A stretch of 64,000 nt of DNA from Rhodocyclaceae bacterium. Lineage in GTDB: Bacteria; Pseudomonadota; Gammaproteobacteria; Burkholderiales; Rhodocyclaceae. The stretch's first letter is position 1, and the number at the start of each line of letters is the position of its first letter. The notes beneath the pieces are model-generated. The model saw only the letters and a program-made list of their open reading frames with translations, was not told where the DNA came from and searched no databases. Shown here piece after piece: positions 48,027 to 63,646 of this stretch. A program made the position numbers and the translations under genes. The stretch spans positions 62,001-126,000 of the forward strand of contig JACFMQ010000005.1 in assembly GCA_019455325.1 (NCBI GenBank), given 5' to 3'.

Positions 48027-48076
48027 CGTACTGGAATCGAACGCGAGGATCTGGGCGAGCGTCCGACAATCGGACG
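48027..48076 (+). promoter_or_regulatory. Tandem activator-binding dyads upstream of thiolase promoter
   Basis: CGTACTGGAATCGAACG (48027-48043) and CGTCCGACAATCGGACG (48060-48076) share the right half ATCGRACG with sites before four other sigma-54 promoters in this window. Starts are 33 bp apart, about three helical turns. They lie 85-135 bp upstream of the -24/-12 promoter, as enhancers should. An IHF-like AATCAGGGGTTTG (48122-48134) lies between. Confidence 0.7.
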
Positions 48077-48159
48077 CCGGGGCGCCGCCGGCGTTCCGCC
48101 GGTGCCTCTTTGGCTTTGGAAAATCAGGGGTTTGCGAGCGTCATCCGAAGCCGCGCCTT

Positions 48160-48175
48160 TGGCATGGCCGATGCT
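48160..48175 (+). promoter_or_regulatory. Sigma-54 promoter of the thiolase-ligase operon
   Basis: TGGCAT-GGCCG-ATGCT keeps the invariant GG and GC at exact 12-bp spacing, with two departures from TGGCAC-N5-TTGC. The thiolase ATG is 41 bp after it. A perfect 7-bp inverted repeat (TAAATGA/TCATTTA, 48175-48197) is centred on the expected start site. Confidence 0.65.
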
Positions 48176-48215
48176 AAATGACCCTGCGGATCATTTACTC
48201 ACAAGGGGAAACAAC

Positions 48216-49382
48216 ATGGGCGTCAGCATTATCGGTTGGGCACATTCGTCGTTCGGACGGCTGGACATGGTCGACCTCGAGTCGCTCATCGTCGGCGTCA
48301 GCCGCGGCGCACTGCAGGATGCGGGAGTTCCGGCCGGGGATGTCGATGGCATCTGGCTGGGCCACCTGAACGGGGGCCTGGTGCCGGAGATCTTCTGTTC
48401 GTCGCTCGTCCTGCAGGCCGCTCCCGCCTTGCGCTGGTGCCCCGCGACCCGCGTCGAGAATGCCTGCGCGTCCGGCGCCGCGGCGGTCTATGCGGCCTGC
48501 GATGCGATCGAGGCCGGGCGGGCGCGCATCGCGCTGGTGGTCGGCGCCGAGAAGATGACGGCGGTGTCCGGCCCCGAGGTCACACAGGTGCTGGCGTCGG
48601 CCTCCTACGTTCCCGAAGAGGCGGCCAAGGGGCTGACCTTCCCGGGGTTGTTCGGCCAACTGGCCGAGCAGTACTTCGGCCGCTACGGCGACCACGCAGC
48701 GACACTGGCCCGCATCGCCGCGAAGAATCATGCCAACGGCACGCGCAATCCCTGGGCACACATGCGCCGGGATCTGGGTTTCGAGTTCTGCAACACCGAG
48801 TCGGAGCGCAATCCGCGGATTGCCGGCCCGCTGCGCAAGACCGACTGCTCCCTGGTGTCCGACGGTGCAGCCGCGCTCGTGCTGGCCGACGATGCGGTGG
48901 CCGCGGGTGCCCGCCGCGCGGTGCGCCTGCGCGCCCGCGCCCAGGTCAATGACTTCCTGCCGGTTTCCAGCCGCGACGTCCTCGGTTTTGAGGGCCCGCG
49001 GCGAGCCTGGCAGCGGGCGCTGGCCGATGCCCGATGCGCGGTGCACGACCTCTCGCTCGCCGAGGTGCACGACTGCTTCACCATCGCCGAACTGCTGACC
49101 TACGAGGCCATGGGGCTGGCCGCACCCGGCCACGGCGGAGACTGCCTTCTGGACGGCAGCGTCCATGCGGGCGGCAGGCTCCCGGTGAATCCGTCCGGCG
49201 GTCTCAAGGCCAAGGGGCATCCGATCGGCGCGACGGGGGTGTCCATGCACGTGATGGCGGCCATGCAACTGACCGGGGAGGCGCTCGACATGCAGGTCAA
49301 GGATGCGAGTCTGGCGGGTGTCTTCAACATGGGCGGCGCGGCGGTCGCCAACTACGTGAGTATCCTGGAGCGCACAAAATGA
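48216..49382 (+). CDS. Thiolase-family protein (SCP2-thiolase type)
   Basis: 388 residues. The nucleophilic cysteine is C84 in VENACASGAAAV. The HDCF motif near residue 285 (AEVHDCFTIAELLTYEAMG) and GHPIGATG near 333 complete the active site. The C-terminal cysteine of classical thiolases is replaced (FNMGGAAVANY), as in SCP2-type thiolases, which use the HDCF cysteine. Within this cluster it would cleave a 3-oxoacyl-CoA with CoA to acetyl-CoA and a shortened acyl-CoA, for example benzoylacetyl-CoA to benzoyl-CoA. The stop overlaps the ligase start (ATGA). Confidence 0.88.
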   Translation: MGVSIIGWAHSSFGRLDMVDLESLIVGVSRGALQDAGVPAGDVDGIWLGHLNGGLVPEIFCSSLVLQAAPALRWCPATRVENACASGAAAVYAACDAIEAGRARIALVVGAEKMTAVSGPEVTQVLASASYVPEEAAKGLTFPGLFGQLAEQYFGRYGDHAATLARIAAKNHANGTRNPWAHMRRDLGFEFCNTESERNPRIAGPLRKTDCSLVSDGAAALVLADDAVAAGARRAVRLRARAQVNDFLPVSSRDVLGFEGPRRAWQRALADARCAVHDLSLAEVHDCFTIAELLTYEAMGLAAPGHGGDCLLDGSVHAGGRLPVNPSGGLKAKGHPIGATGVSMHVMAAMQLTGEALDMQVKDASLAGVFNMGGAAVANYVSILERTK

Positions 49383-50932
49383 ACCTCGCCCAACTGCTCG
49401 CGCGTTCGGCGCGGACCTTTCCAGAGCGGCCCGCAGTCATGGCCGGCCCCCGCCTGCTGCATACCTATGCCGGGCTGGCCGCGCGCTCGGCCCGGCTGGC
49501 CGGCTTTCTGCGGCGCAACCTCAGGCTGGAGCCCGGGGAGCGGGTGGCCATCCACATGACGAACTGCCCCGAATACCTCGAATGCCTTTACGGGGTGCTG
49601 TGGGCGGGGCTGGTGGCGGTGCCGATCAATGCCAAGCTGCATCCGCGCGAGACGGCCTTCATCCTCGCCGATGCCGGCGCCCGCCTGGCGTGCGTGTCGC
49701 GCGATCTGGCGGAGGGACTGGGCGCCTGCCTCGGCGGCAACGGCGGCGTGCTGCCGACGCTGGTGCCCGGCGACGCGCTGTACACCCGTGCGGTGTCCGC
49801 CCTGGCGATTCCGGTACAGGAACGTCTGCCCGATGACCTGGCCTGGCTGTTCTACACCTCGGGTACGACCGGCAAGCCCAAAGGGGTGATGCTCAGCCAC
49901 CGCAACCTGCTGACGATGACGTCCTGCTTCTTCATGGACGTGGACCCGGTCGCCGAGGCCGATGTGGCGGTCTATGCGGCACCGTTGTCGCACGGCGCCG
50001 GCCTCTACAGCTTCCCCTACGTGCTGCGGGGCTGCCGCCACGTCGTCCCGGAGTCCGGAGGGTTCGATCCGGCCGAGCTGATCGCGCTTGCGGCCCGGGT
50101 TGGGCGGCTGGCCATGTTCGTCGCGCCGACCATGGTGAAGCGGCTCACCGACCGGGTGAAGCAGGCGGGCAGCGATCCGTCGGGTTTCCAGACCATCGTC
50201 TACGGCGGTGGTCCGATGTACGCCGAGGACATCGCCGAGGCGCTCACGGTGATGGGGCCGCGCTTCGTGCAGATCTACGGCCAGGGCGAATCGCCGATGA
50301 CCATCACCGCGCTGTCGCGCGCCATCCTGGCCGACCGCAGCGATCCTGCCTGGGCGTCGCGCATCGCCTCGGTCGGGGTCGCGCAGTCGCTCGTCGAAGT
50401 CCGCATCGTCGATGCCGAGGGTCGGCCGCTGGCGAACGACGAGGTTGGCGAGGTGGTGGTCCGCGGCGAGACGGTGATGGCGGGCTACTGGCAGCAGCCC
50501 GAGGCGAGCGCGGCTGCGCTGCGTGGCGGATGGCTGTGGACGGGCGACATAGGGGCGATGGATTCGCACGGCTTCGTCACGCTCAAGGATCGCTCCAAGG
50601 ACGTGATCATCTCGGGCGGCGCCAACATCTACCCGCGCGAGGTGGAGGAGGTACTCGTCACCCATCCTGCGGTCAGGGAGGTGTCGGTGGTCGGCCGGCG
50701 CGACGAGGACTGGGGCGAGGTGGTGATTGCCTTCGTGGTGGTCGATCCGGAGGCCGGCGTCGCTGCCGAAGAACTGGACCGCCACTGCCTGGACCGCATC
50801 GCCCGCTTCAAGCGGCCCAAGGAATACCGCTTCGTCGCCGCCCTGCCGAAGAACAACTACGGCAAGGTGCTGAAGACGGCCCTGCGCGAAATGCTGGAAG
50901 ACACGGCAGCGGCGCCGTCCTGCCGCGTTTGA
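49379..50932 (+). CDS. AMP-forming acyl-CoA ligase (3-oxoacid/benzoylacetate-CoA ligase candidate)
   Basis: 517 residues of the ANL superfamily. The P-loop YTSGTTGKPKGVMLSH starts near residue 158. The later motifs include YGQGESPM, WLWTGDIG, KDRSKDVIISGGANIYPREVEE in segments, and the C-terminal catalytic lysine in PKNNYGKVLK near residue 500. It activates a carboxylic acid to its CoA thioester with ATP in the cytoplasm. It is coupled to the thiolase by a 4-bp overlap. Given the carboxylase operon, a 3-oxoacid such as benzoylacetate is the likely substrate (compare the Bal enzyme of Aromatoleum), but this is inference. Confidence 0.85.
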   Translation: MNLAQLLARSARTFPERPAVMAGPRLLHTYAGLAARSARLAGFLRRNLRLEPGERVAIHMTNCPEYLECLYGVLWAGLVAVPINAKLHPRETAFILADAGARLACVSRDLAEGLGACLGGNGGVLPTLVPGDALYTRAVSALAIPVQERLPDDLAWLFYTSGTTGKPKGVMLSHRNLLTMTSCFFMDVDPVAEADVAVYAAPLSHGAGLYSFPYVLRGCRHVVPESGGFDPAELIALAARVGRLAMFVAPTMVKRLTDRVKQAGSDPSGFQTIVYGGGPMYAEDIAEALTVMGPRFVQIYGQGESPMTITALSRAILADRSDPAWASRIASVGVAQSLVEVRIVDAEGRPLANDEVGEVVVRGETVMAGYWQQPEASAAALRGGWLWTGDIGAMDSHGFVTLKDRSKDVIISGGANIYPREVEEVLVTHPAVREVSVVGRRDEDWGEVVIAFVVVDPEAGVAAEELDRHCLDRIARFKRPKEYRFVAALPKNNYGKVLKTALREMLEDTAAAPSCRV

Positions 50933-50945
50933 GTGATGCGATCCG

Positions 50946-50993
50946 CCCGGCGGCATCGAATGGTCCGTTCACTGCCCGCCTTGAATTCGAACG
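50946..50993 (+). promoter_or_regulatory. Activator-binding dyads upstream of CoA-transferase promoter
   Basis: CCCGGCGGCATCGAATG (50946-50962) and CGCCTTGAATTCGAACG (50977-50993) each keep seven of eight bases of the shared right half ATCGAACG, with starts 31 bp apart. They lie about 100-145 bp upstream of the sigma-54 promoter. The left halves are degenerate. Confidence 0.5.
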
Positions 50994-51091
50994 AAGCCTG
51001 GTCGCGATCGACCGCAAACGAAACGACGACGCGGCTCGCCGGAATCCGGCTTCGGGTTCGTTCTTGTTTTGAATCAGGTGGTTGGCCGTTC

Positions 51092-51107
51092 TGGCACTGC
51101 CTTTGCT
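51092..51107 (+). promoter_or_regulatory. Sigma-54 promoter of the CoA-transferase operon
   Basis: TGGCAC-TGCCT-TTGCT is a perfect match to TGGCAC-N5-TTGCW, 93 bp before the GTG start. An IHF-like AATCAGGTGGTTG (51072-51084), nearly the same as that before the thiolase promoter, is just upstream. Confidence 0.88.
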
Positions 51108-51199
51108 GTGCAAGTCATGCGGGCGGAAATGCTCCGCGCGGGAATTCCGGCCAATGCGAATTCCGGGAAACGGCGCAACTCAAATCGAAGGAATGCAAA

Positions 51200-51922
51200 G
51201 TGTCTTCAAGAAAGCGATATCCGACGGCAGCTTCGGCATTGAAAGACCTGCTGCACGATGACATGACGATCATGTCGGGCGGCTTCGGCCTGTGCGGCAT
51301 TCCCGCCATTTTGATCGACGCGGTGCTCGAATCCGGGGTGAAGGGGCTGACCCTCATCTCGAACAATCCGGGCAGCGATGGCTTCGGTCTCGGCAAGCTT
51401 TTCGACACCCGCCAGGTGCGCAAGCTGATTTGCTCCTATGCGGGCGAGAATGCCCAGTTCGCGCGCCAGTACATGGCCGGTGAAGTGGAAGTGGAATTCA
51501 ACCCGCAGGGCACCCTGGCCGAGCGCATCCGCGCCGGCGGTGCCGGCATTCCCGCCTTCTACACCCCTACCGGCATCGGCACGGTAATCGCCGAAGGCAA
51601 GCCGACGGCCGAATTCGACGGCAAGACCTATGTGCTCGAGCGGGGCCTGCGGGCGGATCTGGCTCTGGTGCACGCCTGGCAGGGCGATACCGAGGGCAAT
51701 CTTGTCTATCGCATGACGGCGCGCAACTTCAACCCCATGATGGCTACGGCTGCAGCCGCGACTGTGGCTGAGGTCGAGCAACTGGTCGAGCCGGGCGCAA
51801 TGGCTCCGGACCATATCGTCACGCCCGGCATCTATGTGGATCGCATCGTGCTCGTGGAGAGGGTCGACAAGCGGATCGAACAGCGGACGGTGCGCCGTCG
51901 CACGGCCTTGGCGGAGGAGTGA
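51200..51922 (+). CDS. 3-oxoacid CoA-transferase subunit A
   Basis: 240 residues from a GTG preceded by AAGGAA. MSGGFGLCGIP is the CoA-binding glycine-rich loop of family I alpha subunits, followed by LTLISNNPG, a LAERIRAGGAGIPAFYTPTG segment and NLVYRMTARNFNP. It pairs with the next gene product to move CoA, usually from succinyl-CoA or an acyl-CoA, to a 3-oxoacid such as acetoacetate. As a member of the sigma-54 regulon here, it probably activates the carboxylation product. The gap to subunit B is 3 bp. Confidence 0.92.
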   Translation: MSSRKRYPTAASALKDLLHDDMTIMSGGFGLCGIPAILIDAVLESGVKGLTLISNNPGSDGFGLGKLFDTRQVRKLICSYAGENAQFARQYMAGEVEVEFNPQGTLAERIRAGGAGIPAFYTPTGIGTVIAEGKPTAEFDGKTYVLERGLRADLALVHAWQGDTEGNLVYRMTARNFNPMMATAAAATVAEVEQLVEPGAMAPDHIVTPGIYVDRIVLVERVDKRIEQRTVRRRTALAEE

Positions 51923-51925
51923 GAA

Positions 51926-52561
51926 ATGGCCTGGACAAGAGATCAAATGGCGGCACGTGCCGCCCGGGAATTGCGTGACGGCTATTACGTCAACCTGGGC
52001 ATCGGCATTCCCACCCTGGTGGCGAATCACGTGCCGCCCGGCATGTCCATTCAGCTCCAGAGCGAGAACGGCATGCTCGGCATGGGCCCTTTCCCGTGGG
52101 AAGGCGAGGAGGATGCCGACCTGATTAACGCCGGCAAGCAGACCATCACCACGCTGCCGACCACCAGCTTTTTCGACAGCGCCACCTCCTTCGGCATGAT
52201 CCGCGGCGGCCATATCCAGCTGTCCATGCTGGGGGCGCTGCAGGTGTCGGAGAAGGGCGACCTGGCGAACTGGGCCGTGCCGGGCAAGATGATCAAGGGC
52301 ATAGGCGGCGCGATGGATCTGGTGGCCGGGGTCGGCCGCGTCGTGGTGATCATGGAACACACCGCGCGCGGGGAGCCCAAGATCGTCCGCGAGTGCTCGC
52401 TGCCGCTGACCGGGACGGGCGTGGTGGATCTCATCGTGACCGATCTCTGCGTATTCGAAGTGCGCGACGGCGGTCTGGCGCTGGTCGATCTCGCGCCGGA
52501 TACCAGTGTGGACGATGTGAGGGCCGCCACCGCCGTCGATTTCGTCGTCGCCCTGCAATAG
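51926..52561 (+). CDS. 3-oxoacid CoA-transferase subunit B
   Basis: 211 residues. The catalytic glutamate E47 is in the conserved [10 protein letters not shown] motif. [31 protein letters not shown] and [15 protein letters not shown] are further family motifs. It forms the beta subunit with the preceding gene product. The two together match the form of ScoAB/PcaIJ-type transferases. Having both this enzyme and an AMP-forming ligase gives two routes to 3-oxoacyl-CoA. Confidence 0.93.
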
Positions 52562-52624
52562 GCGTGCAGTCCGCCGCCTTGCAGGTGCGGGCATTTTCCC
52601 GCCACTGCACGCTTTTAGACAGGG

Positions 52625-52665
52625 CGTTCGATAATCGGACTACACCAGCGTTCGATTATCGAACG
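52625..52665 (+). promoter_or_regulatory. Best-conserved pair of activator-binding dyads (regulator promoter)
   Basis: CGTTCGATAATCGGACT (52625-52641) and CGTTCGATTATCGAACG (52649-52665). The second is a perfect palindrome about its central T. Starts are 24 bp apart and lie 75-115 bp upstream of a sigma-54 promoter. As the strongest copies in the window they define the motif, and suggest autoactivation of the regulator gene. Confidence 0.8.
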
Positions 52666-52739
52666 TCCCTCGTCACCTAGCCCCTCACCACGAAGCTGAA
52701 GGCGGGTGAATCCGCCTCCTTGTCAATCATTTGTCGGAT

Positions 52740-52755
52740 TGGCGCAGAATTTGCT
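52740..52755 (+). promoter_or_regulatory. Sigma-54 promoter of the activator gene
   Basis: TGGCGC-AGAAT-TTGCT differs from the consensus at one base. It lies 284 bp before the regulator ATG, leaving a long leader with several hairpins, such as TCCCG-TTTG-CGGGA near 52862-52875 and a GTGCC/GGCAC pair at 52908-52937. No gene is seen in 52562-53038. Confidence 0.75.
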
Positions 52756-53038
52756 GGGTCCGAACATCGGTCTGCACGGCGCTTGATTTTTGCGCGGATC
52801 GAGACCAGTCTGACAAGCCATCCCGGTCTGTCAAGACGGGGCCGCGTGCCGAGACACACGCCGGTCCCGTTTGCGGGAACAACACGGGATCGAAGAAGCG
52901 GTCGTGTGCCGGTGCCTCGGCGGAGGCACTCCGGCACGGGGACACGGCCAGGAGACATGAGAGAACTGCACGCGGCGTACGGACCGGAGGTCCGCAGCCG
53001 ACGACGCAGTCAGCGTATCGGCACAAAGGAGGGTGGAC

Positions 53039-55054
53039 ATGCCTGCCACTATTTCAGGCCAGATGTTTTCCGTTCCGGAAAACGATGGCCGCATCATGGC
53101 CTCATGGGAGCACTTCGTTAATGGGGGTGAGGCCGGGTCGGACGCACTGCGCCGGCTGATAGACGATTCGTGGCGCCGCTGCTTTGGTGCCAGCGTGGAT
53201 CCCGGGTGCTTTCAGGCGCCACCGCCGGTCGGCGACGACTCCCTGCACTACCTGTGCGACGAATCCTCCGATCTGCTGACCGCCAGCGCCCCGGTAATGG
53301 CCTCAGCGCGGGATTTTCTGTCCGAAACCGGGACGGTGATGGTTCTGACCAATCACAGCGGCACCATCCTCAGTCTTGAAGGCGACATGTTCACCCGCGG
53401 TGCCGCGGAGAGCGTGCATCTCCTGTCCGGTGCGAACTGGAGCGAACTGGCCTGCGGCACCAATGCCATCGGCACTGCGCTCGAGATCGGCCAGCCGGTG
53501 CAGATCCACTCGGCGGAGCACTACTGCGCCGGCATCAAGCGGTGGTCCTGTTCGGCAACGGTGATCCGCGATCCATATGATGAAACGATACTCGGCGTGG
53601 TCGACGTGTCCGGACTGTCGGCCTCCTACAGCCGCCACAGCTTGGCGCTGGTGGTGGCTACCGCGGGGCGGATCGAGAACCGGCTGGCGCGCATGGAGAT
53701 GGCTGTGCGTTACCGGCTGCTCGAGACCTGCGTCGATCGTCTGTCGCCGTCGGCTCTGGACGGCGTGATCGTGTTCGACCGTCGCGGCCGCGCGATCAAG
53801 GCCAACCCGCGGGCGTCGACGGTCATGGCCGACCTCGCCGGATGCTCGTCTGCCGGCGCGTTGGACGCGCTGACGTTGAAGTGGAAGCAGACCGAAGGGG
53901 TAGCGGAGGGATTGCCCGATTGGATAGACCGGAACTGGCTGGAGCCGGTGATCATTGGCGGGGAGCTCCTCGGTACCGTCTTAACCCTGCCGAGCCGCCA
54001 TCCCCAGGCCGGCAGCCTGTCCCGGTCGGTACCGCTGTACTTCGGCGAAGCCGTCGAAAAGGGCGCCTTCGAGAAGGTCGTGGGTGCGTCGTCGGCGCTG
54101 ATGCAGGCCGTCGGCCGGGCGCAGCTGCTGGCAAAATCGCGCGTGCCCGTGCTGCTACTGGGTGAAACCGGCGTGGGCAAGGACGTTTTCGCGCGCTGCA
54201 TTCACGAATCCGGTGCGACCAAGGGCGGCCCTTTCGTCGCCCTCAACTGTGGCGGGTTTTCGCGCGAGCTGCTGACCAGTGAACTGTTCGGCTACACCGA
54301 GGGCTCGTTCACCGGCGCGCGCCGTGGCGGCATGATTGGCAAGATCGAGGCCGCCAACGGCGGCACCCTGTTCCTGGACGAGATCGGCGAGATGCCGATC
54401 GACTTGCAGCCGCATTTCCTGCGTGTGCTGGAAGAAGGCGAGGTCTATCGCATCGGCGAGAACAAGCCGCGCAAGGTGAATTTCCGCCTCATCGCCGCGA
54501 CCAACCGCGATCTACGCAGGGAAATCCAGGCCGGCAGTTTTCGCATGGACCTCTTCTACCGGGTGGCGGTGACGAGCATCAGCATTCCGTCGCTGCGCGA
54601 TCGTCCCGGCGACATTCCCCTGCTCGGCGACCATTACCTGAAGGCGCTGGCGCAGCAGCACGGGCTGGGGCCGCGGACGCTGTCGGCCGGCGCGGCCGAA
54701 CGCCTGGCGCAATACGGCTGGCCGGGGAACATCCGCGAGTTCCGCAACGTCATCGAAAGCATGCTGCTGACCTCGCAGGCGAGCGTCCTTACCGAAGCGG
54801 ACCTGCCGCTCGACATCCGGGCGGCGCTGGAGATCGCGCCGCAGGGTGACCCGGATGCGCCGTGCGATGCGCGCGACCTGACCTGCCTGGAAAGTGCGGA
54901 GCGCGAGGCCATCCTGCGTGCAATCAAGGCCTGCCGCGGCAACATGACGGCCGTTGCGCGCGAACTGGGCATCGCCAAAAGCACCGTCTACGCAAAGCTC
55001 AAGCGCTTCGGCCTGGAAGCCTATGTGGACGATCTGCGCAACTATCGCGTCTGA
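53039..55054 (+). CDS. AcoR/AcxR-like sigma-54-dependent activator
   Basis: 671 residues. A GAF sensor domain (about 75-215, with [19 protein letters not shown] and the C-rich [12 protein letters not shown]) is followed by a PAS-like region (about 230-320) and the AAA+ domain. That domain has Walker A GETGVGKD near 374, the sigma-54 contact loop GSFTGA near 421, and Walker [14 protein letters not shown] Fis-type helix-turn-helix ends it ([20 protein letters not shown]). The ATG at 53039 has GGAGG 6 bp upstream; an in-frame GTG at 53033 falls within that site. The GAF domain probably senses the ketone or a product. It should act at all the -24/-12 promoters of this cluster. Confidence 0.92.
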
Positions 55055-55088
55055 TATCGCTCCGGCGTCCTGATCGTCGCGCTGATCC

Positions 55089-55117
55089 ATCCGCCCCTGC
55101 AGCCGTCGGGGGCGGAT
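55089..55117 (+). terminator. Hairpin after the activator gene
   Basis: ATCCGCCCC and GGGGCGGAT form a 9-bp perfect stem with an 11-base loop, 35 bp after the stop. There is no clear U tract. Confidence 0.5.
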
Positions 55118-55341: not shown

Positions 55342-55358
55342 AAACCGGAAATCGAACG
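55342..55358 (+). promoter_or_regulatory. Activator-binding site upstream of carboxylase promoter
   Basis: AAACCGGAAATCGAACG contains the full right half ATCGAACG of the shared motif, with a diverged left half. A weaker copy, CGATTCAATTCCGGATA (55309-55325), lies 33 bp before. The site is about 105-120 bp upstream of the sigma-54 promoter. Confidence 0.6.
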
Positions 55359-55461: not shown

Positions 55462-55477
55462 TGGCACGGGGCTTGCG
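55462..55477 (+). promoter_or_regulatory. Sigma-54 promoter of the carboxylase operon
   Basis: TGGCAC-GGGGC-TTGCG matches the -24/-12 core perfectly, 151 bp before the first carboxylase gene. The DNA between site and promoter is AT-rich, compatible with IHF bending, though no exact IHF consensus is present. Confidence 0.88.
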
Positions 55478-55627: not shown

Positions 55628-57565
55628 ATGGCATTGCAAATCAATATCGATAACGGTGGGACACTCACTGATATCTGCATCATGGCCGATGATGCGGTCA
55701 GGAAGACCAAGGTGCTGACCACGCCTTATGACCTGAGCAAGTGCTTTTTCGAAGGCCTGCAGAAGGCCTCCGGGGTGCTCTACGAGACCCCGGACGTCGG
55801 GCGCCTCCTCGAGGAAGTCGACCTGATCCGCTACTCGACGACGCAGGGCACCAACGCCATCTGCGAACGCAAGGGTCCGCGCCTGGGCCTGATCATCGAT
55901 GCCGGCGCACGCGATCTACCGGTGCGGCTGGCCGAGCACGATCCAGAGGTGTACGAGGCGCTGGTCGGCGACCGTGTCGCCTTCCTCGATGCCGCGGTGG
56001 TTTGCGGCGACAGCGCGGACGTCGACGTGGTGAAGGCGATCAACCAGCTCACCGCCGCCGGTGCCAACCGGCTGGTGGTCAGCTTCGGCGGCAGCGCCTT
56101 CCGCGAGGTGGAAGAGCGATTCCGCAAGGTGGTGTTGCGCAAGTATCCGCGCCACCTGCTGGGCGCGGTGCCGGTGCTCTACGGCAGTGATCTGACCACG
56201 GACCGCGACGTCGTCCGCCGCACCTGGACGGCGTTGATCAACTCCTTCCTGCATCCGGCGATGGAAGCCTTCCTGTTCAACGCCGAGAACCGCCTGCGCG
56301 CCTATCGTACGAAGAACCCGCTGCTCATCTTCCGCAACGATGGCGATGCTTCGCGGGTCGCCAAGACAGTGGCGATCAAGACCTACAGCTCCGGTCCGCG
56401 CGGCGGCATGGAGGGCATGAAGTCCTTCGCCCGGCTCTACGGCATGTCCGACGTGGTCGCCATCGACGTCGGCGGCACCACCACCGACATCGGCCAGTGC
56501 CTGAACGGCAAGGTGGCCGAGGTGCAGCGCGGCCACGTCGAAGGCATCAGCGTGTCCTTCCCGCTGTGCGAAATCATGAGCGCCGGTGCGGGCGGCAGCT
56601 CCATCTGCAAGGTGGTCAACAACCGTATCGTGATCGGCCCCGAGAGCGTGGGCGCGGTGCCTGGGCCGGCGGCCTTCGGCCGCGGCGGCAAGGAAGCCAC
56701 CATCACCGACACCAGCCTGCTGTGCGGCATCTTCGACCCGAAGTCCTACTTCGGCGGCGGCATGGCGCTCGACCTCGACCGCGCGGCGACAGCGGTGAGC
56801 CTCAACATCGCCCAGCCGCTCGGCGTTGGCCTGGACGACGCGCTGCTGCAGATGGAGCACGCCTACGAGGAGAAGATCGCAGTCGAGCTGCACCGCTTCA
56901 CCAAGGTCTCCAAGGACACCGTGATGCTCGCCTTCGGCGGAGCCGGCCCGCTCAATGCGTGCGGTGTCGCCGAGAAGGCCGGCATCGACCGGGTCGCGGT
57001 GCCCAAGCTGGCGGCCGTGTTCAGCGCCTTCGGCATCGGCTCCTGCGACATCTCCCAGCGCTACGCGGTCGCGCTCGACGACCGCAGCACCGCGGGCCTG
57101 GGTGAGGCACTCGCCGGCCTCAAGCTCAAGGCGGCGCGCGACATGTTCGCCGAGGGCTTTGCCGAAGGCCAGTACGACATCGAAGCCTGGCTCGCCGGTG
57201 AGATGGAGGATGGCAGCGAGCTGAGCTGCCCGCTCGCGGACGGTGCCGATTTCCCGCCGGAGTTGGCCCGCGCCAGCACGGTGGAACTTGGCCTGCGCGC
57301 GGTCAAGCCGCTGCGCGCCGACGCCGGCAAGGCCGCCCGCTTCGCGCCCGCCCAGGTGGCCACGGCAGCGGGGACGCGCAAGGTTCTGAGCCGCGGCAAG
57401 GGCCGCATCGACATCCCCGTCTATCGCCTTGCCGACCTCGCCACAGGCGACCACGCGAGCGGCCCGGCGATCGTCGAGGAAGACTTTTTCACGTGCCACG
57501 TGCTCGATGGCTGGAGCTTCGTCATCAGCGATGCGGGCGACATCATGCTGAACAGGAAGGCCTGA
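55628..57565 (+). CDS. apcA: ATP-dependent ketone carboxylase subunit, HyuA-like (ApcA-type)
   Basis: 645 residues, about 70 kDa. It has the hydantoinase A/oxoprolinase fold, with ASKHA-type ATP-binding elements at the start (QINIDNGGTLTDICIMADD; note NGG instead of the usual VGG) and at VVAIDVGGTTTDIGQCLNG near residue 278. SAGAGGSSICKV and a C-terminal ASGPAIVEEDFFT complete the family pattern. Size and gene order equal ApcA, one of two related kinase-like subunits of acetophenone carboxylase. The ribosome-binding site AGGAGG lies 9 bp upstream. The next gene starts 3 bp later. Confidence 0.8.
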   Translation: MALQINIDNGGTLTDICIMADDAVRKTKVLTTPYDLSKCFFEGLQKASGVLYETPDVGRLLEEVDLIRYSTTQGTNAICERKGPRLGLIIDAGARDLPVRLAEHDPEVYEALVGDRVAFLDAAVVCGDSADVDVVKAINQLTAAGANRLVVSFGGSAFREVEERFRKVVLRKYPRHLLGAVPVLYGSDLTTDRDVVRRTWTALINSFLHPAMEAFLFNAENRLRAYRTKNPLLIFRNDGDASRVAKTVAIKTYSSGPRGGMEGMKSFARLYGMSDVVAIDVGGTTTDIGQCLNGKVAEVQRGHVEGISVSFPLCEIMSAGAGGSSICKVVNNRIVIGPESVGAVPGPAAFGRGGKEATITDTSLLCGIFDPKSYFGGGMALDLDRAATAVSLNIAQPLGVGLDDALLQMEHAYEEKIAVELHRFTKVSKDTVMLAFGGAGPLNACGVAEKAGIDRVAVPKLAAVFSAFGIGSCDISQRYAVALDDRSTAGLGEALAGLKLKAARDMFAEGFAEGQYDIEAWLAGEMEDGSELSCPLADGADFPPELARASTVELGLRAVKPLRADAGKAARFAPAQVATAAGTRKVLSRGKGRIDIPVYRLADLATGDHASGPAIVEEDFFTCHVLDGWSFVISDAGDIMLNRKA

Positions 57566-57568
57566 CAA

Positions 57569-57967
57569 ATGAAAGTACCGATGACTGAATACCTGTGCGT
57601 CGACCTCGACTCCGAAAAGTGGGAGTGCCGCGTGTGCAACCACGAGATCGGTCCGGCGACCAAGGGCTACAAGGAAGGCATGCTGGTCTACGACCGCGAC
57701 CCGCGCGAAATCCATCCACCCATCATTGATCCCGAGAAGTACCGCTTCACCTTCAGTCCCGATCCCGAGTGGGTGCGCATCCTCGAGTACTACTGCCCGC
57801 ATTGCGGAACGATGGTCGAGACCGAGTACGCCGTCCCCGGCCATCCGCCGCTGCACGACATGCAGCCCGACCTGCCCGCGCTGCGCGCGCAGTGGGCCAA
57901 ACGCGGCGAGGTCACGGTGCCGGTGGTCGGCCCCGCGGTGACGGCCGATCAGGGCCACAGCCACTAA
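57569..57967 (+). CDS. apcB: Small zinc-binding carboxylase subunit (ApcB-type)
   Basis: 132 residues, about 15 kDa. Two CxxC pairs, C20-C23 (ECRVCNHEIG) and C76-C79 (YYCPHCGTM), form a probable zinc ribbon. The rest is charged, with a WVRILEYYCPHCG strand, and ends in a histidine-containing tail (GHSH). It corresponds in size and place to the gamma-type subunit of acetophenone carboxylase, and more distantly to the gamma subunit of acetone carboxylase. It lies between the two HyuA-like genes in one operon. Confidence 0.78.
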   Translation: MKVPMTEYLCVDLDSEKWECRVCNHEIGPATKGYKEGMLVYDRDPREIHPPIIDPEKYRFTFSPDPEWVRILEYYCPHCGTMVETEYAVPGHPPLHDMQPDLPALRAQWAKRGEVTVPVVGPAVTADQGHSH

Positions 57968-58042
57968 GCCCCATTCAAGCGCCGGACAGGAAGGCCGCCC
58001 GCGATCCGGGCGGCCCCGGCGGAACAGAATCAAGGAGATAGC

Positions 58043-60178
58043 ATGAGGCGCGTTTCAGTCGATATCGGTGGCACCTTCACCGATTGCTTTGTGGTGTGGG
58101 ACGGCAAGTACATCGAAGCCAAGGCCCTGACCACCCATCACAACCTGGCACTGGGTTTCAACGAAGCCCTGAGCAAGGCCTATCACGATCTCGGCCTGGA
58201 GCTGGAGGAAATCCTCTCCCAGGTGGACTCGGTGCGCTATGCGACGACGCTGGGCACCAACGCCCTGATCGAGCACAAGGGGCCCAAGATCGGCATGCTG
58301 GTCACGGCCGGCTACGAGGCCACGGTGCCGCTGTCGCGTGCCCGCGGCTACGGCGAAGGGCTGGACAACCTCGGCCAGCAGGACATGCCGAACGCCCGGC
58401 GCCCCGATCCGCTGGTGCTGCCGCACATGATCCGCGGCGTGCGCGAGCGGGTGGACTTCCAGGGCGAGCTGGTGATGCCGCTCGACGAGGGCGACGTGCG
58501 CACCCAGATCCGCGAGCTGGTGGACCGCGGCGCCGAGATCATCGTCGTGGCGCTGGTCAATGCGGTGGTCAATCCGGCGCACGAGCAGCGCATCGAGGAG
58601 ATTCTGCTCGAGGAATATCCGTCGCATCTGCTCGGCGCCATCCCGGTGATCCTGTCGCACCAGGTGGCGGGCCGCAAGGGCGAATACGTGCGGGCGACCT
58701 CGGCCATCGTCGACGGCTACCTGCACAACACCATGTACCACGCCCTGTCGGCGCTGGAGCAGAACCTGCGGGCGCACCGCTACGAGAAGCCGATGCTGGT
58801 CATCCACAACTCCGGCGGCATGGCCCAGCTCAACTCCACCGATGCCCTGCAGACCATCCACTCCGGCCCGGTGTCCGGCATCGGCGCCTCCGAGCACCTG
58901 GCGATGCAGTGCGACCTGGGCAATGTGGTCGCCACCGACATGGGCGGCACCAGCTACGACATCGGCATCGTGGTCGAAGGCGGCATCAAGCACTACGACT
59001 TCAACCCGGTGATCGACCGCTGGCTGGTGTCGGTGCCGATGGTGCACCTGGTGACCCTGGGCGCGGGCGGCGGCTCCATCGCCAGCTATGACCGCATGTA
59101 TAACACGGTGAAGTGCGGCCCCGAGTCCGCCGGTTCCGACCCCGGGCCAGCCTGCTACGACCGCGGCGGCATGCGGCCGACGGTGACCGACGCCGACCTG
59201 CTGCTCGGCTACCTCGACCCGAAGAACTATGCCGGCGGCTCGATCCCGCTCAACCCGCGACGCGCGTCGGCGGCGATCGAGGACGCGCTGTGCGACGACC
59301 TCGACTGTTCGGTGATCGAGGCAGCGTTGCTGATCCGCGAGAAGGTGGACGACAACATGGCCAACGGGCTATTCACCGAACTGCGCGCGCGCGGCTACGA
59401 CCCCAAGGACTTCACCATGCTCGCCTATGGCGGCAACGGGCCGCTGCACTGCTGCGGCATCGCCCAGAACCTGAACATCGACAGGATTCTGGCGCCTCCG
59501 CTCAGCTCGGTGTTCTCGGCCGTTGGCGCCGGCAACATGCACCAGCTCCACATCCACGAGGCCTCGCTTTACATGGTGCTGTACGACTCGAACACGCGCC
59601 ACCTGTTCGATGACTACGACCGTTTCAACACCATCGTCGCCGACCTCAAGGAGCAAGGCACCCAGGATCTGCTGCGTCAGGGCGTGGCGCGCGAGGACAT
59701 CTGCCACAACCTGGAGCTGGATCTGCGCTACGGCAACCAGCTGGTGCAGACCACCGCGGTGATTCCGCGCCACGAGGTGCACGGTCCGGCCGATGTGCTG
59801 GCGATCATCGAGCAGTTCTCCAACGACTACGGCAAGCGCTTCGGCGAAGGCTCGCAGGCGCCGGAGGCCGGCATCCGCATCAACACCATCCGCGTGGCCG
59901 CCTTCGTGCGTCACGAGACGGTGAAGTTCGAGAACATCAAGCCGCTCCCGGCCGAGCAGCGCAAGTCGCCGCCGCCGCCGTCGGCCACCCGCAAGTGCCA
60001 CTTCGTCGGCCACGAGGGTGCGTTCGAGACCCCGGTGTGGAGCCGCGCGGCGATCGAGCCCGGCGTGCAGATCGCCGGCCCCGCCATCGTCGCCTCCGAA
60101 GTGACCACCTTCCTGGTCAATCCCGGCTGGAACTTCGTCGCCGCCAAGCAGGGGGCCTCCTGGTTCCTGCGCGCCTGA
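58043..60178 (+). CDS. apcC: ATP-dependent ketone carboxylase subunit, second HyuA-like (ApcC-type)
   Basis: 711 residues, about 78 kDa. The standard N-terminal motif DIGGTFTDCFV is intact (residues 5-15), unlike in the ApcA-type subunit. NVVATDMGGTSYDIGIVVEGG near 295, TLGAGGGSIASYD, and a late AIEPGVQIAGPAIV complete the HyuA family features. It probably performs one of the two ATP-dependent phosphorylation steps, that is bicarbonate or the ketone enol. The operon continues after 44 bp. It is the counterpart of ApcC, and alternatively of the beta subunit of acetone carboxylase. Confidence 0.8.
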   Translation: MRRVSVDIGGTFTDCFVVWDGKYIEAKALTTHHNLALGFNEALSKAYHDLGLELEEILSQVDSVRYATTLGTNALIEHKGPKIGMLVTAGYEATVPLSRARGYGEGLDNLGQQDMPNARRPDPLVLPHMIRGVRERVDFQGELVMPLDEGDVRTQIRELVDRGAEIIVVALVNAVVNPAHEQRIEEILLEEYPSHLLGAIPVILSHQVAGRKGEYVRATSAIVDGYLHNTMYHALSALEQNLRAHRYEKPMLVIHNSGGMAQLNSTDALQTIHSGPVSGIGASEHLAMQCDLGNVVATDMGGTSYDIGIVVEGGIKHYDFNPVIDRWLVSVPMVHLVTLGAGGGSIASYDRMYNTVKCGPESAGSDPGPACYDRGGMRPTVTDADLLLGYLDPKNYAGGSIPLNPRRASAAIEDALCDDLDCSVIEAALLIREKVDDNMANGLFTELRARGYDPKDFTMLAYGGNGPLHCCGIAQNLNIDRILAPPLSSVFSAVGAGNMHQLHIHEASLYMVLYDSNTRHLFDDYDRFNTIVADLKEQGTQDLLRQGVAREDICHNLELDLRYGNQLVQTTAVIPRHEVHGPADVLAIIEQFSNDYGKRFGEGSQAPEAGIRINTIRVAAFVRHETVKFENIKPLPAEQRKSPPPPSATRKCHFVGHEGAFETPVWSRAAIEPGVQIAGPAIVASEVTTFLVNPGWNFVAAKQGASWFLRA

Positions 60179-60222
60179 GGGCTGCAGGACGACCATCGAC
60201 CATCTTTCAGACAGGATCGAAC

Positions 60223-62499
60223 ATGAACGACATCGCTACGCCTGTGAAGGCAAAGACGCCCAGCGCCGAGGAACTGGCGCTGATCAAGAAGTTCCTCAGC
60301 GACACCACGCTGTTCCTCGGGCCCGACCCGGAGATCATGCAGAACCATGACCTCATGCCGCGCACCGAGGCCGAAGACGAGGCCATCCGCAAGATGAGCG
60401 ACGCCCACACCATCGCCAAGATCCGCGACCGCATCCAGGCCGGTTGCGACGAAGGCTACGAGATGGTCGAGCAGATGGGCGCGGCGCCCGGTGCCAAATG
60501 GGGCGACGTCATCACCGGGGTGTATTCGGCCTCGGGCGACCTCGCCATCGCCAGCGCCGGCGGCGTGCTGATCTTCTCCGCGCTGGTGCACCATCCGATC
60601 AAGTTCATCATCAAGAACTGGATGAACGACCCGACGGTGGGCGTGCGCGAGGGCGACGGCTTCATCCACAACGACTCGCGCTACGGCAACGTGCACAACA
60701 CCGACCAGTCGATGATTCTGCCCATCTTTCACGAGGGGAAGCTGGTGTGTTGGGTGGCCTCGACGGTGCACGAGGGCGAGAACGGCGCGATCGAGCCGGG
60801 CGGCATGCCGTCGATGGCCGAAAGCCCGTGCGACGAAGGCCTCAAGATGAGCCCCTTCAAGGTCGCCGAGAACTACGAGATCAAGCGCGACATCCTCACC
60901 TTCCTGCAGAACTCGGTGCGCGAGCCCAAGCTGCAGTACGAGGACATGAAGGTCAAGCTGTTTGCCTGCCTGCGCATCAAGCAGCGCATCGAGGAAACGC
61001 TCAAGACCGATGGTCCCAGTGCCCTCGTCTCCACCCTGCGCCTGACCATGGAGAACGTGCGCGCCGAGGTGAAGCGCCGCATCAGCGAATGGCCGGACAT
61101 GACGGTGCGCACCTACATCATCCAGGACTCGACCCTGCGCGAGAACTGCGTGGTGAAGATCAACTGCAAGCTCACCAAGACCGGCGACCGGTTGATCTTC
61201 GATTTCCGCGGCTCGGCGCCGGAATTCACCAACCGGCCGACCAACACCATCGTCGCCGGCCTCAAGGGCATGCTGGCGCAGGTCTTCCTGTGCTACGTGT
61301 GGCCGGATCTGCCGCGCGGCCAGGCCGCCTTCGCACCGATCGAGGTGATCACCGACCCGCACTCCATCGTCAATTGCTCCTACGACGCACCGAACTCGCA
61401 GAGCCTGATGTCGATCTTCACCGGCTTCACCGCCGGCCAGCACGCGGTGGCCAAGTTCCTCTACAGCTGCCCGGAGAAGTACACCAAGGTCCATGCCCCG
61501 ACCTTCAACATGATCAACACCTTCATCTGGGGTGGGGTCAGCCAGCACGGCGAGACCCTCGGCAACCTCTGCGCCGACCTCAACGGCATGGGCGCGGGCG
61601 CCACGGTGGACCGTGACGGCGAGCATGCGCTGGCACCGATCTTCGCCACCATGGCCGACATCGGCGAACAGGAGCTCAACGAGGAGGACGTGCCCTTCCT
61701 GCAGCTCGTCTCCAAGAAGATGACGCGCGACGCCATCGCCCCGGGCAAGTACCGCGGCGGCCAGGGCTACACCATGATCGTGGCGACCAAGGACAGTGAG
61801 CAGTGGGGATTCATGACCACCTGCCAGGGCGCCAAGATTCCGCCGCTGCAGGGCCTGTTCGGCGGCTACGCCTGCGGCGCCTATCCGCTCTCCAAGGTCA
61901 AGGGCGTGGATGTGTACGACGTGCTGCTCGACACGCCGGAGAAGTTCAAGCACTCCATCGAGGAGATCATGAACGAGCAGCCTTTCGAGGGCGCGAGCTA
62001 TACCACCCACCACATGGGCATGGGCTTCGAGATCTCCAAGCGCGGCGAACTCTTCATGATCTCGCAGGGTGCCGGTGCCGGTTACGGCGACCTGCTGGAG
62101 CGCGATCCGGCCGGCGTCATCCGCGACATCGAGCAAGGCCTGATCTCGCCGGCCGTGGCCGAGCGTCTGTACAAGGTCAAGTTCGATCCGGCGACGCTGG
62201 CGATCAACCACGACGCCACCGCCGCGGCGCGCGATGCCGAGCGCAAGGCGCGCGTGGCGCGCGGCGTGCCCTACGCCGAGTTCGTCAAGTCGTGGAACAA
62301 GCCGACGCCGCCGTCGCACCTGCAGTACTTCGGCTGCTGGGGCGACGACGTCGGCAAGCTCTACATGGGCGACGTGGGCAAGTACCGCGAAGCCGCCGCA
62401 CCGCGACCCAACTACATGCCCCACCCGAAAGACGTGCGCATCGCCGAACTGGAAGCGCGGCTCGCGGCACTCGGCGCACTGGGAGGTGAAAAGCAATGA
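60223..62499 (+). CDS. apcD: ATP-dependent ketone carboxylase subunit, HyuB-like (ApcD-type)
   Basis: 758 residues, about 84 kDa. It is a hydantoinase B-type protein. The metal-binding region FIHNDSRYGNVHNTDQ near residues 147-162 fits the ND-x-H-x-D pattern of the family. GLKGMLAQVFLCYVWPDLP, NCSYDAPNSQS and GAGAGYGDLLERDP are later conserved stretches. The N-terminal 100 residues include a helical lead (EAIRKMSDAHTIAKIRDRIQ). This subunit should carry the carboxylation site. Its stop overlaps the next start by 4 bp. Confidence 0.82.
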   Translation: MNDIATPVKAKTPSAEELALIKKFLSDTTLFLGPDPEIMQNHDLMPRTEAEDEAIRKMSDAHTIAKIRDRIQAGCDEGYEMVEQMGAAPGAKWGDVITGVYSASGDLAIASAGGVLIFSALVHHPIKFIIKNWMNDPTVGVREGDGFIHNDSRYGNVHNTDQSMILPIFHEGKLVCWVASTVHEGENGAIEPGGMPSMAESPCDEGLKMSPFKVAENYEIKRDILTFLQNSVREPKLQYEDMKVKLFACLRIKQRIEETLKTDGPSALVSTLRLTMENVRAEVKRRISEWPDMTVRTYIIQDSTLRENCVVKINCKLTKTGDRLIFDFRGSAPEFTNRPTNTIVAGLKGMLAQVFLCYVWPDLPRGQAAFAPIEVITDPHSIVNCSYDAPNSQSLMSIFTGFTAGQHAVAKFLYSCPEKYTKVHAPTFNMINTFIWGGVSQHGETLGNLCADLNGMGAGATVDRDGEHALAPIFATMADIGEQELNEEDVPFLQLVSKKMTRDAIAPGKYRGGQGYTMIVATKDSEQWGFMTTCQGAKIPPLQGLFGGYACGAYPLSKVKGVDVYDVLLDTPEKFKHSIEEIMNEQPFEGASYTTHHMGMGFEISKRGELFMISQGAGAGYGDLLERDPAGVIRDIEQGLISPAVAERLYKVKFDPATLAINHDATAAARDAERKARVARGVPYAEFVKSWNKPTPPSHLQYFGCWGDDVGKLYMGDVGKYREAAAPRPNYMPHPKDVRIAELEARLAALGALGGEKQ

Positions 62500-63356
62500 G
62501 CCGGAGCCTCGCCGACGATCTGCCCGGCGGCACGGGCAACGGGCGCCTGCGGGTGTGGCTCAAGTCTTCGGCCTACACCCGTCGGCTTCTCCTGGGCGCA
62601 GGGGGCGACCCCTGGGCCAGCGCGCCGCAGTACCTCGCCTACTTCAGTCAGGCCCAGGGCCTGCTGCGCCCCGATGTCGCCGTGGTCGAAGTTGGCGAGC
62701 TGTTCGACGCCTGGCTGGCTCGCCACCCGACGGTGGCGGTGGAGCTGGGCGCCAAGCGGCGCCTCTCGTATCCGCTGCGCAAGCTGCTCGAACAGGAGGC
62801 GCCGCGCCAGCTCCTCGCCGAGGTGGTCGAGGCCGTGATCGCCAACCTGCGGGGTCAGACCCCGCTGGTACTGGCGATGCCGTCGCCCAGGCATTGGTTG
62901 CACCATGCCAATGCGCTGGTGGGACGGGGCGACGCCGAACTGGACCCGGACGGCATCGAGGATGCCGCCATGTACATGGCCGATCTGCTGCGCTCGGTGT
63001 CGGCCTACGCGGTGGGCGGCGTGCTGCTGGAAGAACATCCAGCCGACATCGGCGTGGCCGACGTCGAGCGTTATCGCCCGCTCATCAATGTCGCCAAGCA
63101 CTATCGCTGGTCGCTGGTGCTGCGGCCGCGCGGCGATGCAGAGCGGGTGTCGCTGCCGCCGGCCGATTTCGACGCGCTCATCTCGCCAATCGTCCGGGCC
63201 GCCGCGTCCATGTCCTCGGGCGTGGATGTCAGCGCCGCACTGTGGGCCGGAAGCGCCTTGCCGGTGCTGGGGCCGGGTCAGTTCTACTTCGTCGAGATCC
63301 CGGCCGAACAGCCCCCCGAACTGGTGCTGGAAAGCCTTGCCCGGTTACGAGCGTGA
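62496..63356 (+). CDS. apcE: ApcE-type accessory subunit of ketone carboxylase
   Basis: 286 residues, about 31 kDa, soluble alpha/beta protein. Features include YLAYFSQAQGLLRPDVAVV, VIANLRGQTPLVLAMPSPRH, a run of small residues in YAVGGVLLEEHP, and the end QFYFVEIPAEQPPELV. I recognise no general fold. A fifth gene of this size at the end of an HyuA-small-HyuA-HyuB operon is diagnostic of acetophenone-carboxylase-type clusters, where ApcE is needed with the ApcABCD core. The ATGA overlap with apcD supports strict co-expression. No clear terminator follows within 140 bp. Confidence 0.72.
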   Translation: MSRSLADDLPGGTGNGRLRVWLKSSAYTRRLLLGAGGDPWASAPQYLAYFSQAQGLLRPDVAVVEVGELFDAWLARHPTVAVELGAKRRLSYPLRKLLEQEAPRQLLAEVVEAVIANLRGQTPLVLAMPSPRHWLHHANALVGRGDAELDPDGIEDAAMYMADLLRSVSAYAVGGVLLEEHPADIGVADVERYRPLINVAKHYRWSLVLRPRGDAERVSLPPADFDALISPIVRAAASMSSGVDVSAALWAGSALPVLGPGQFYFVEIPAEQPPELVLESLARLRA

Positions 63357-63496
63357 TCCATCGGGCGGGCGTCGTGGTGTTTTCATGATGCCGGCCTGAT
63401 TCCCTTAGCGTCCCGAACAGGACATTCCCACCGAGTCCAGGAGCAATGCGCCTCCGTGCGCAGGGGGACGGCTGCTCACCGCGTCGCAAGGCGACC

Positions 63497-63536
63497 CGTT
63501 CGATAACCGGGCGGAGATGCGGCGGATTACCGGACG
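63497..63536 (+). promoter_or_regulatory. Tandem activator-binding dyads upstream of the last promoter
   Basis: CGTTCGATAACCGGGCG (63497-63513) and CGGCGGATTACCGGACG (63520-63536), starts 23 bp apart, match the dyads in front of the activator gene (left half CGTTCGAT identical in the first). They lie 95-135 bp upstream of the sigma-54 promoter at 63631. Confidence 0.7.
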
Positions 63537-63589
63537 GGCAATCCGGAATGTTGCTACGCCGCAATGGGATAGCCGGGCTGGTGTTTTTT

Positions 63590-63602
63590 TAACCAATTGA
63601 TA
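63590..63602 (+). promoter_or_regulatory. IHF site
   Basis: TAACCAATTGATA is an exact match to the complement of WATCAA-N4-TTR, in an AT-rich tract. It is placed midway between the activator dyads and the -24/-12 promoter, where bending would bring the activator to polymerase. Confidence 0.7.
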
Positions 63603-63630
63603 ATAAACATATAAATATGAAATTTCTGGC

Positions 63631-63646
63631 TGGCACCTAATTTGCT
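63631..63646 (+). promoter_or_regulatory. Sigma-54 promoter of the truncated last operon
   Basis: TGGCAC-CTAAT-TTGCT is a perfect -24/-12 match. It lies 269 bp upstream of the last gene start in the window. Nothing coding is evident in 63357-63914. Confidence 0.9.

Follow-up and report, generated by a model that had tools for sequence, protein, structure and literature searches.

Layout of the locus

The window analysed here is the whole stretch of 64,000 nucleotides from a Rhodocyclaceae bacterium (G000:C8:62001-126000 in our numbering), which lies inside a genome of 4.46 Mb. It carries a cluster of genes in the order CobW-type GTPase, thiolase, acyl-CoA synthetase, CoA transferase A and B, activator, carboxylase subunits, an unassigned gene and an export-type row. 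A dyad of the form CGT-YCGR-NNN-YCGR-ACG recurs in this cluster together with -24/-12 promoters, and it is very probably the enhancer of the cluster's own sigma-54 activator. The genes, with positions counted from the first letter of the window, are the following.

46620-47894, minus strand: gene of a CobW/COG0523-type GTPase, divergent (Pfam cobW, 142 bits, and CobW_C)
48216-49382, plus strand: thiolase-like gene of the PRK07516 family (NCBIfam, 656.9 bits against a cut-off of 412)
49379-50932, plus strand: acyl-CoA synthetase gene (AMP-binding domains)
51200-51922 and 51926-52561, plus strand: 3-oxoacid CoA-transferase subunits A and B (TIGR02429 and TIGR02428, above cut-off)
53039-55054, plus strand: AcxR/AcoR-like activator gene (Pfam GAF, sigma-54 AAA+ and Fis-type helix-turn-helix)
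55628-57565, 57569-57967 and 58043-60178, plus strand: ApcA-, ApcB- and ApcC-like subunits, acetophenone-carboxylase-like
about 60175-62499 (start codon approximate), plus strand: ApcD-like subunit, acetophenone-carboxylase-like
62496-63356, plus strand: conserved gene, relatives of which follow the ApcD-like gene in many loci
from 63915 past the window end, plus strand: YCF48, RND (MMPL), DUF1302 and DUF1329 row (gene families; L112:916-7296)

The activator has the AAA+ and helix-turn-helix domains of sigma-54 enhancer-binding proteins (PF00158, 209.8 bits; PF02954, 40.2 bits). Its translation reads GSFTGA where the GAFTGA loop is expected, and GAF is the sole sensor domain among its Pfam matches. 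RpoN is encoded in the same genome. As in AcxR-type systems, the activator gene adjoins a carboxylase of the acetone/acetophenone carboxylase superfamily.

Dyads and promoters in the window

Promoters were scored as mismatches to TGGCAC-N5-TTGCW and sites of integration host factor (IHF) were compared with the consensus WATCARNNNNTTR. Dyads were compared with the ideal CGTTCGATWATCGAACG and ranked by a matrix trained on 37 pairs (74 sites) that precede the regulator gene in genomes other than the window's and that of its 94% relative G086. These 74 sites are not mutually independent. The G genomes are related to one another. The dyads below carry no strand.

47937-47952, minus strand: -24/-12 promoter TGGCATGGCCTTTGCA into the CobW gene; 1 mismatch; identical letters in G086
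48027-48043: weak dyad CGTACTGGAATCGAACG, 33 bp from 48060; 4 mismatches, 9.9 bits, rank 9; unchanged in G086
48060-48076: dyad CGTCCGACAATCGGACG between the divergent CobW and thiolase promoters; 3 mismatches, 22.2 bits, rank 2; strict genome-wide match
48122-48134, plus strand: IHF consensus site AATCAGGGGTTTG; exact here and in G086
48160-48175, plus strand: -24/-12 promoter of thiolase and acyl-CoA synthetase; 2 mismatches; identical in G086
50977-50993: half-dyad CGCCTTGAATTCGAACG before ctfA, good right half only; 7 mismatches, 3.5 bits, rank 17; kept in G086 except one base
51072-51084, plus strand: IHF consensus site AATCAGGTGGTTG; exact, in G086 only a 2-mismatch match
51092-51107, plus strand: -24/-12 promoter of ctfAB; 0 mismatches
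52625-52641: dyad CGTTCGATAATCGGACT, upstream partner of the regulator pair; 2 mismatches, 22.1 bits, rank 3; strict genome-wide match
52649-52665: perfect dyad CGTTCGATTATCGAACG, 24 bp from 52625; 0 mismatches, 26.9 bits, rank 1
52740-52755, plus strand: -24/-12 promoter of the activator gene (putative autoregulation); 1 mismatch; identical in G086
55342-55358: weak dyad AAACCGGAAATCGAACG before the carboxylase; 6 mismatches, 10.1 bits, rank 8
55462-55477, plus strand: -24/-12 promoter of the carboxylase genes; 1 mismatch
63497-63513: dyad CGTTCGATAACCGGGCG; 3 mismatches, 16.7 bits, rank 4; strict genome-wide match
63520-63536: dyad CGGCGGATTACCGGACG, 23 bp from 63497; 5 mismatches, 11.4 bits, rank 6
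63590-63602, minus strand: IHF consensus site TATCAATTGGTTA; exact, in G086 only a 2-mismatch match
63631-63646, plus strand: -24/-12 promoter of the YCF48/RND/DUF1302/DUF1329 genes; 0 mismatches

An earlier sequence-only reading of this DNA had described five of these promoters, and all five 16-mers are indeed present in their places with 0-2 mismatches. The sixth, at 47937-47952 on the minus strand, had been overlooked; variant spellings of it occur in 8 loci besides the window and G086. The divergent CobW-type GTPase gene, left out of the regulon by that reading, is a probable member of it. The three IHF-like sites which it had placed at 48122, 51072 and 63590 are exact matches situated in dyad-promoter gaps, and the whole 64 kb holds 4 exact matches, 3 of them within such gaps.

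The nine dyads that had been proposed are of unequal quality. Four of them (52649, 48060, 52625 and 63497) are strong and exceed 15.9 bits, the best score in 20 shuffled windows. Three more (63520, 55342 and 48027) are moderate or weaker; they score near 10 bits, which is also attained about once in shuffled windows, and their positions fit. The one at 50977 is a half-site, while 50946 (9 mismatches) was rejected: it has matrix rank 6322 and the stretch is missing in the 94% orthologue G086. Two unclaimed places, 9334 and 53319, rank 5th and 7th in the window by the matrix.

A further dyad was noticed at 52757-52773; it begins 17 bp downstream of the first base of the -24/-12 box of the activator gene and hence near the transcript start. 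It scores 5.0 bits in the window and 11.3-13.5 bits in G086, G094, G190 and G309; at least 10 bits are reached at 4 of 36 promoters, compared to 0 of 260 control slots. Such a dyad could bring about autorepression in a few lineages; as a general feature autorepression was rejected, the dyad being limited to a few near relatives.

Frequency of the dyad in the genome and in shuffled sequence

With at most 3 mismatches the strict dyad is found at 4 sites in the 4.46 Mb genome, all within the cluster, and its reversed control at none; the dyad at 52649 is the sole mismatch-free match. Modules composed of a sigma-54 site and a dyad of at least 9.5 bits occur 5 times in the window, always in this cluster, against a mean of 0.17 in 30 shuffled windows, and 4 times in 1.35 Mb of other loci (L008-L080). 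A looser IUPAC form of the dyad is far less specific. With at most 1 mismatch it gives 6 sites (4 in the cluster) against 2 for the control in the window genome and, in 18 genomes taken together, 96 against 60; with at most 2 mismatches the figures are 31 against 30 genome-wide. A check of how frequent the dyads are elsewhere in the genome, proposed in the sequence-only reading, speaks for the strict dyad, which is confined to the cluster, and not for its loose forms, which are near control level.

Such a picture might also arise by chance, from palindromes that happen to occur in GC-rich DNA and are combined with common look-alikes of -24/-12 promoters, and the loose motif, about as frequent genome-wide as its reversed control, would agree with this. 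The strict sites, the module counts and the conservation described below do not, and we regard chance as a very improbable explanation of the whole. For the dyads at 52649, 52625, 48060 and 63497 it is refuted in our reading; for 50946 and, taken alone, 50977 a chance origin is possible.

Conservation at target promoters

The survey of promoters covered 16 loci from the clade of the window; G270, L001, L002, L004, L187 and short loci were not among them. A dyad of at least 10 bits is present before the CobW gene in 10 of 10 loci, each with a -24/-12 promoter of at most 1 mismatch, before the thiolase in 9 of 10, before ctfA in 8 of 11 and before the carboxylase in 14 of 15. All 16 regulator genes also have one, a count that is circular because the matrix was trained on those sites. 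Orthologous upstream regions, the comparison of which had been suggested together with the original proposal, keep the dyads before most target promoters in the window's clade.

Dyads were also found before acetone carboxylase genes. Among loci of regulators more than 50% identical to the activator, a CGT-type dyad with at most 2 mismatches precedes these genes in 15 of the 15 that offer at least 300 bp of upstream sequence (6 further loci were too short). In a third clade, about 43% identical, 13 of 13 loci have a TGT-type dyad without mismatch there. Of the 15 loci in the first group, 13 have a -24/-12 promoter, and in 12 of these a dyad starts 106-107 or 136-137 bp before it, two positions that differ by about three helical turns.

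Between dyad and promoter an exact IHF consensus is present at the carboxylase in 7 of 15 loci, at ctfA in 3 of 11, at the thiolase in 2 of 10 and at the export operon in 3 of 9; it was found at none of the 16 regulator and none of the 10 CobW promoters. The distance from dyad to promoter changes in steps of about one helical turn at the CobW gene (95-96, 107-108 and 117-118 bp) and the thiolase (82, 92-93 and 102-104 bp). With distances merged to three states, the p value for phasing is 0.03-0.06 for CobW and below 0.03 for the thiolase; since the best-scoring dyad of a pair can mimic a step of 22-24 bp, only the 10-11 bp steps inform on phasing.

Regulator clades and operator types

Relatives of the activator at E <= 1e-130 are encoded in 79 of 395 family genomes, and 107 loci were reduced to 80 distinct regulators by removing duplicates. 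A pair of dyads lies within 800 bp upstream of 39 of the 62 distinct regulators that are more than 50% identical, followed within 240 bp by a -24/-12 promoter (at most 2 mismatches) in 36 of these 39. The window's clade mostly adjoins acetophenone-carboxylase-like genes, and 17 of its 18 pairs are spaced by 22-24 bp, the remaining one (L004, Celeribacter) by 34. Its sister clade adjoins acetone carboxylase or CoA-transferase genes, with 18 of 21 pairs at 32-33 bp and the others at 31, 30 and 21. L145 belongs to the window's clade in the tree and has a spacing of 23 bp beside acetone carboxylase, so that the spacing there follows the regulator and not the enzyme. In the third clade (41-45% identical) most regulator genes point away from a neighbouring acetone carboxylase operon in divergent orientation, and 13 of 16 members show TGTCCGGAATCCGGACA-type dyads, TGT-N11-ACA. 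Carboxylase genes are found near many members of all three clades.

The operator co-varies with the recognition helix of the regulator: IAKST (VAKST in L136) is accompanied by CGT...ACG in rows above 45% identity, and ISRST by TGT...ACA in the third clade. On a tree of 79 regulators, built by a quick method with some long branches and with L185, a short, broken copy, excluded, the three architectures (labels assigned by the author, 29 rows unlabelled) need 3 changes, compared to a shuffled mean of 23.2, and none of 200 shuffles was as low. Five genomes that were checked (G060, G204, G260, G286 and G342) carry two activators, each with its own site type or spacing. This distribution points to the dyad as a putative operator of AcxR-type (GAF, sigma-54) activators of ketone carboxylases.

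The dyads could instead be the target of another protein that travels with the cluster, either a repressor or some other sigma-54 activator. At least 16 further genes in the window genome match the sigma-54 activator domain, and the binding of the dyad by this particular activator is predicted from sequence. The dyad, however, tracks the regulator into clusters with different enzymes and neighbours, before both regulator and carboxylase genes, and it changes when the recognition helix of the regulator changes. Another binding protein is for these reasons quite improbable.

In L185 (G260:C2) part of the cluster is present a second time in partly broken form; the regulator there has an internal stop, and the upstream dyads look intact.

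Mirror symmetry of the regulator-gene pair

In 10 of 40 pairs upstream of the regulator gene, the two dyads are exact reverse complements of each other. Because each dyad is nearly palindromic, equal direct and reverse identity would be expected by chance; in the 39 pairs that remain when L148 is left out, as in all mirror tests, reverse identity is higher than direct identity in 35. Pair-specific mirror identity amounts to 581 in the 39 pairs, against 513 ± 8 expected from the shared consensus (shuffles), and to 200 against 172 ± 6 in 14 representatives; in 5 very divergent ones the excess does not reach significance (p 0.08). When identical pairs were removed, 34 were left, and 14 sister pairs were compared: of 37 changes in the first dyad, 16 have a complementary counterpart at the mirror position and none is paralleled by a change at the same position (18 mirror coincidences against 10.0 ± 2.1, p 0.0004). 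Outer halves are complementary at 288 of 312 positions (247 expected), inner halves more weakly so at 260 of 312 (237 expected), and at position 4 mirror bases are complementary in 36 of 39 pairs where 17.8 are expected. The figures for spacers, 136 of 439, and for flanks, 172 of 585, are close to the 27% expected by chance. Symmetry is lower in the pair of the window itself, which has 15 of 17 positions identical in reverse and 14 in direct orientation.

This resemblance beyond the shared consensus, together with the mirrored changes in sister pairs, is what one would expect if the regulator-proximal pair were mainly a nucleic-acid hairpin, for example for transcript end or processing after the upstream gene, with single dyads alone as operators. 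The co-variation observed, strong in outer and weaker in inner halves, is on the other hand not what one would predict from a simple hairpin; no T-run follows the window's pair, a -24/-12 promoter follows 36 of 39 pairs, and the test on divergent representatives fell short of significance. We consider the hairpin improbable as the main function. The lineage-specific mirror changes do not obviously follow from the preference of a single protein; they might be explained by hairpin-templated mutation, by selection for a structure or by assembly with mirror symmetry. It is tempting to speculate, although we think it rather unlikely, that the operator is a palindrome of palindromes whose dyads evolve as mirror images, above all in their outer halves, through hairpin-templated mutation, selected secondary structure or mirror-symmetric protein assembly. 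The distance between dyads (22-24 or 32-33 bp), combined with the outer base pair (CGT or TGT), would then be a code by which sister activators, which often share a genome, remain confined each to its own set of ketone carboxylase genes.

Proposed mechanism

We assign a probability of roughly 0.9 to the reading that the dyad CGT-YCGR-NNN-YCGR-ACG would act as the enhancer, or upstream activating sequence, of the activator at 53039 and would serve six promoters. These promoters very probably form a real sigma-54 regulon, judging from sequence. From the arrangement we infer binding and activation as follows. Activator dimers would dock on one or two dyads, the centres of which lie 84-127 bp upstream of the -24 element at the window promoters, and IHF or AT-rich DNA would bend the gap between dyad and promoter. 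The GAF domain may sense a ketone or a ketone-derived compound, upon which the activator would assemble and drive sigma-54 RNA polymerase. The genes served would be those for the CobW-type GTPase, thiolase and acyl-CoA synthetase, CoA transferase (through a weak site), the activator itself, the carboxylase and the RND-type export operon. In the wider AcxR-type clade the same dyad would operate at acetone carboxylase genes with a different distance between paired dyads.

Several results weigh against this reading. In the window the dyads at 55342 and 48027 are close to what chance would give if only their sequence is considered, the ctfA promoter has a half-site only, and loose dyad forms are little or no commoner than controls. 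Just 4 of 11 loci in the window's clade show a dyad of 10 bits or more before the export operon; weak dyads there often stand at an unaltered distance from the promoter (127-129 bp in 6 of 9 promoter-bearing loci). Helical phasing was not seen at the regulator and carboxylase promoters. Among the regulators more than 50% identical, 23 of 62 have no pair in 800 bp upstream, and L004, L131 and L145 have pairs without a -24/-12 promoter (at most 2 mismatches) downstream. The Methyloversatilis-like group (G270, L001, L002 and L187), although 68-72% identical, has no dyad in 800 bp upstream, and L001 and L002 have none of 13.5 bits over the whole stretch. A nine-member subclade at 59% has at most one 2-mismatch dyad match in 800 bp upstream; in its three longer loci a dyad is present about 1.6 kb upstream. 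Finally, 3 of the 16 members of the ISRST clade lack a dyad in 800 bp, and L148 has both types.

The suggestion in the sequence-only reading that one AcxR/AcoR-like activator acts on these promoters is nevertheless strongly supported, as the dyad tracks the regulator tree and a change of the helix goes with a change of the operator. To call the regulon "complete" was too strong, given the missed CobW promoter and the half-dyad at ctfA. What results is a concrete predicted operator, a spacing rule and a member list for regulators of bacterial ketone carboxylases, with a CobW-type GTPase, possibly a metal chaperone, joining the regulon. One dyad, two spacings and one recognition-helix change offer a clean natural series for studying how dyads are counted by enhancer-binding proteins and what keeps paralogues separate. 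The results might also be of use for ketone biosensors.

Related systems

In Xanthobacter autotrophicus and Cupriavidus metallidurans the acxABC genes adjoin the gene of the sigma-54-type activator AcxR, and the acxRA gap contains a sigma-54 promoter; no AcxR operator was found in the text consulted (PMC2864759). Two of the clades described here likewise adjoin acetone carboxylase (the L135 alpha subunit scores 1284 bits to 5m45_A), while the window's enzyme, with 138 bits, is not an acetone carboxylase. In Aromatoleum aromaticum EbN1 the sigma-54 activator EtpR, for p-ethylphenol and p-hydroxyacetophenone, is situated between catabolic and efflux clusters that both have sigma-54 motifs; it has been compared with the phenol- and alkylbenzene-responsive XylR and DmpR, and no enhancer sequence for it was found in the text consulted (PMC4630880). 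The window resembles the EtpR regulon in its single sigma-54 activator for catabolic and efflux genes. EtpR has a sensor domain of the XylR/DmpR type. The activator was not identified with EtpR because this domain differs from GAF, the window protein's only one among Pfam matches.

Fifteen groups of enhancer-binding proteins in Clostridiales have TGT...ACA enhancers with a 10-12 bp spacer, and the AcoR group there has a distinct predicted motif (PMC6615313). Dyad enhancers of sigma-54 activators are common to both cases, and TGT-N10-12-ACA is matched by 13 of 16 members of the ~43% clade with TGT-N11-ACA, but not by the window, the strong dyads of which are CGT...ACG; its clade has CGT-N11-ACG and paired dyads. 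In Thauera butanivorans BmoR, with an alcohol inducer, has been given a putative inverted-repeat (hairpin) enhancer and an IHF-like region; removing the putative site left a wild-type-like response, which leaves the enhancer unsettled (PMC8899819). By description BmoR, a Thauera sigma-54 activator, is similar in its putative inverted-repeat enhancer and IHF-like region and different in its alcohol inducer. No enhancer of this sequence or of like architecture was found in the part of the literature that was searched as running text (including PMC8784404, PMC4729919, PMC4630880, PMC6615313, PMC2864759 and PMC8899819). The sequence-only reading knew of no published operator for this activator group; a predicted AcoR motif from Clostridiales and the putative BmoR hairpin have been published. 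Within the literature covered the operator sequence, its architecture and the clade-wide comparison are new; the scheme of enhancer, IHF and -24/-12 promoter is itself ordinary.

Other genes of the cluster

The carboxylase cannot be named after either known enzyme. Its ApcD-like protein is closer to acetophenone carboxylase (285 bits) than to acetone carboxylase (138 bits to 5m45_A, to which the L135 protein scores 1284), and acetone carboxylase was rejected. Acetophenone carboxylase was also rejected, as the scores for ApcA, ApcB, ApcC and ApcD (344, 122, 578 and 321 bits) are all below the NCBIfam equivalog cut-offs (1250, 250, 1500 and 1500 bits). The gene at 62496-63356, without a Pfam or NCBIfam match at E 0.001, is possibly the counterpart of the fifth subunit named in ApcABCDE.

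Homologues of the CobW-type GTPase occur in 15 of 80 loci, including the window's, and all 15 belong to the window's clade. Since bacterial acetone carboxylase is called a manganese-dependent metalloenzyme in a reference title (PMC2864759), it is a fair guess, by analogy, that this GTPase may be a metal chaperone for the carboxylase. A CobW-type gene adjoins the regulator also in loci titled Methyloversatilis, Xanthobacter and Celeribacter.

The YCF48/RND/DUF1302/DUF1329 row is perhaps involved in export or outer-membrane handling of ketones. It accompanies these activators in many loci, some of them in the sister clade.

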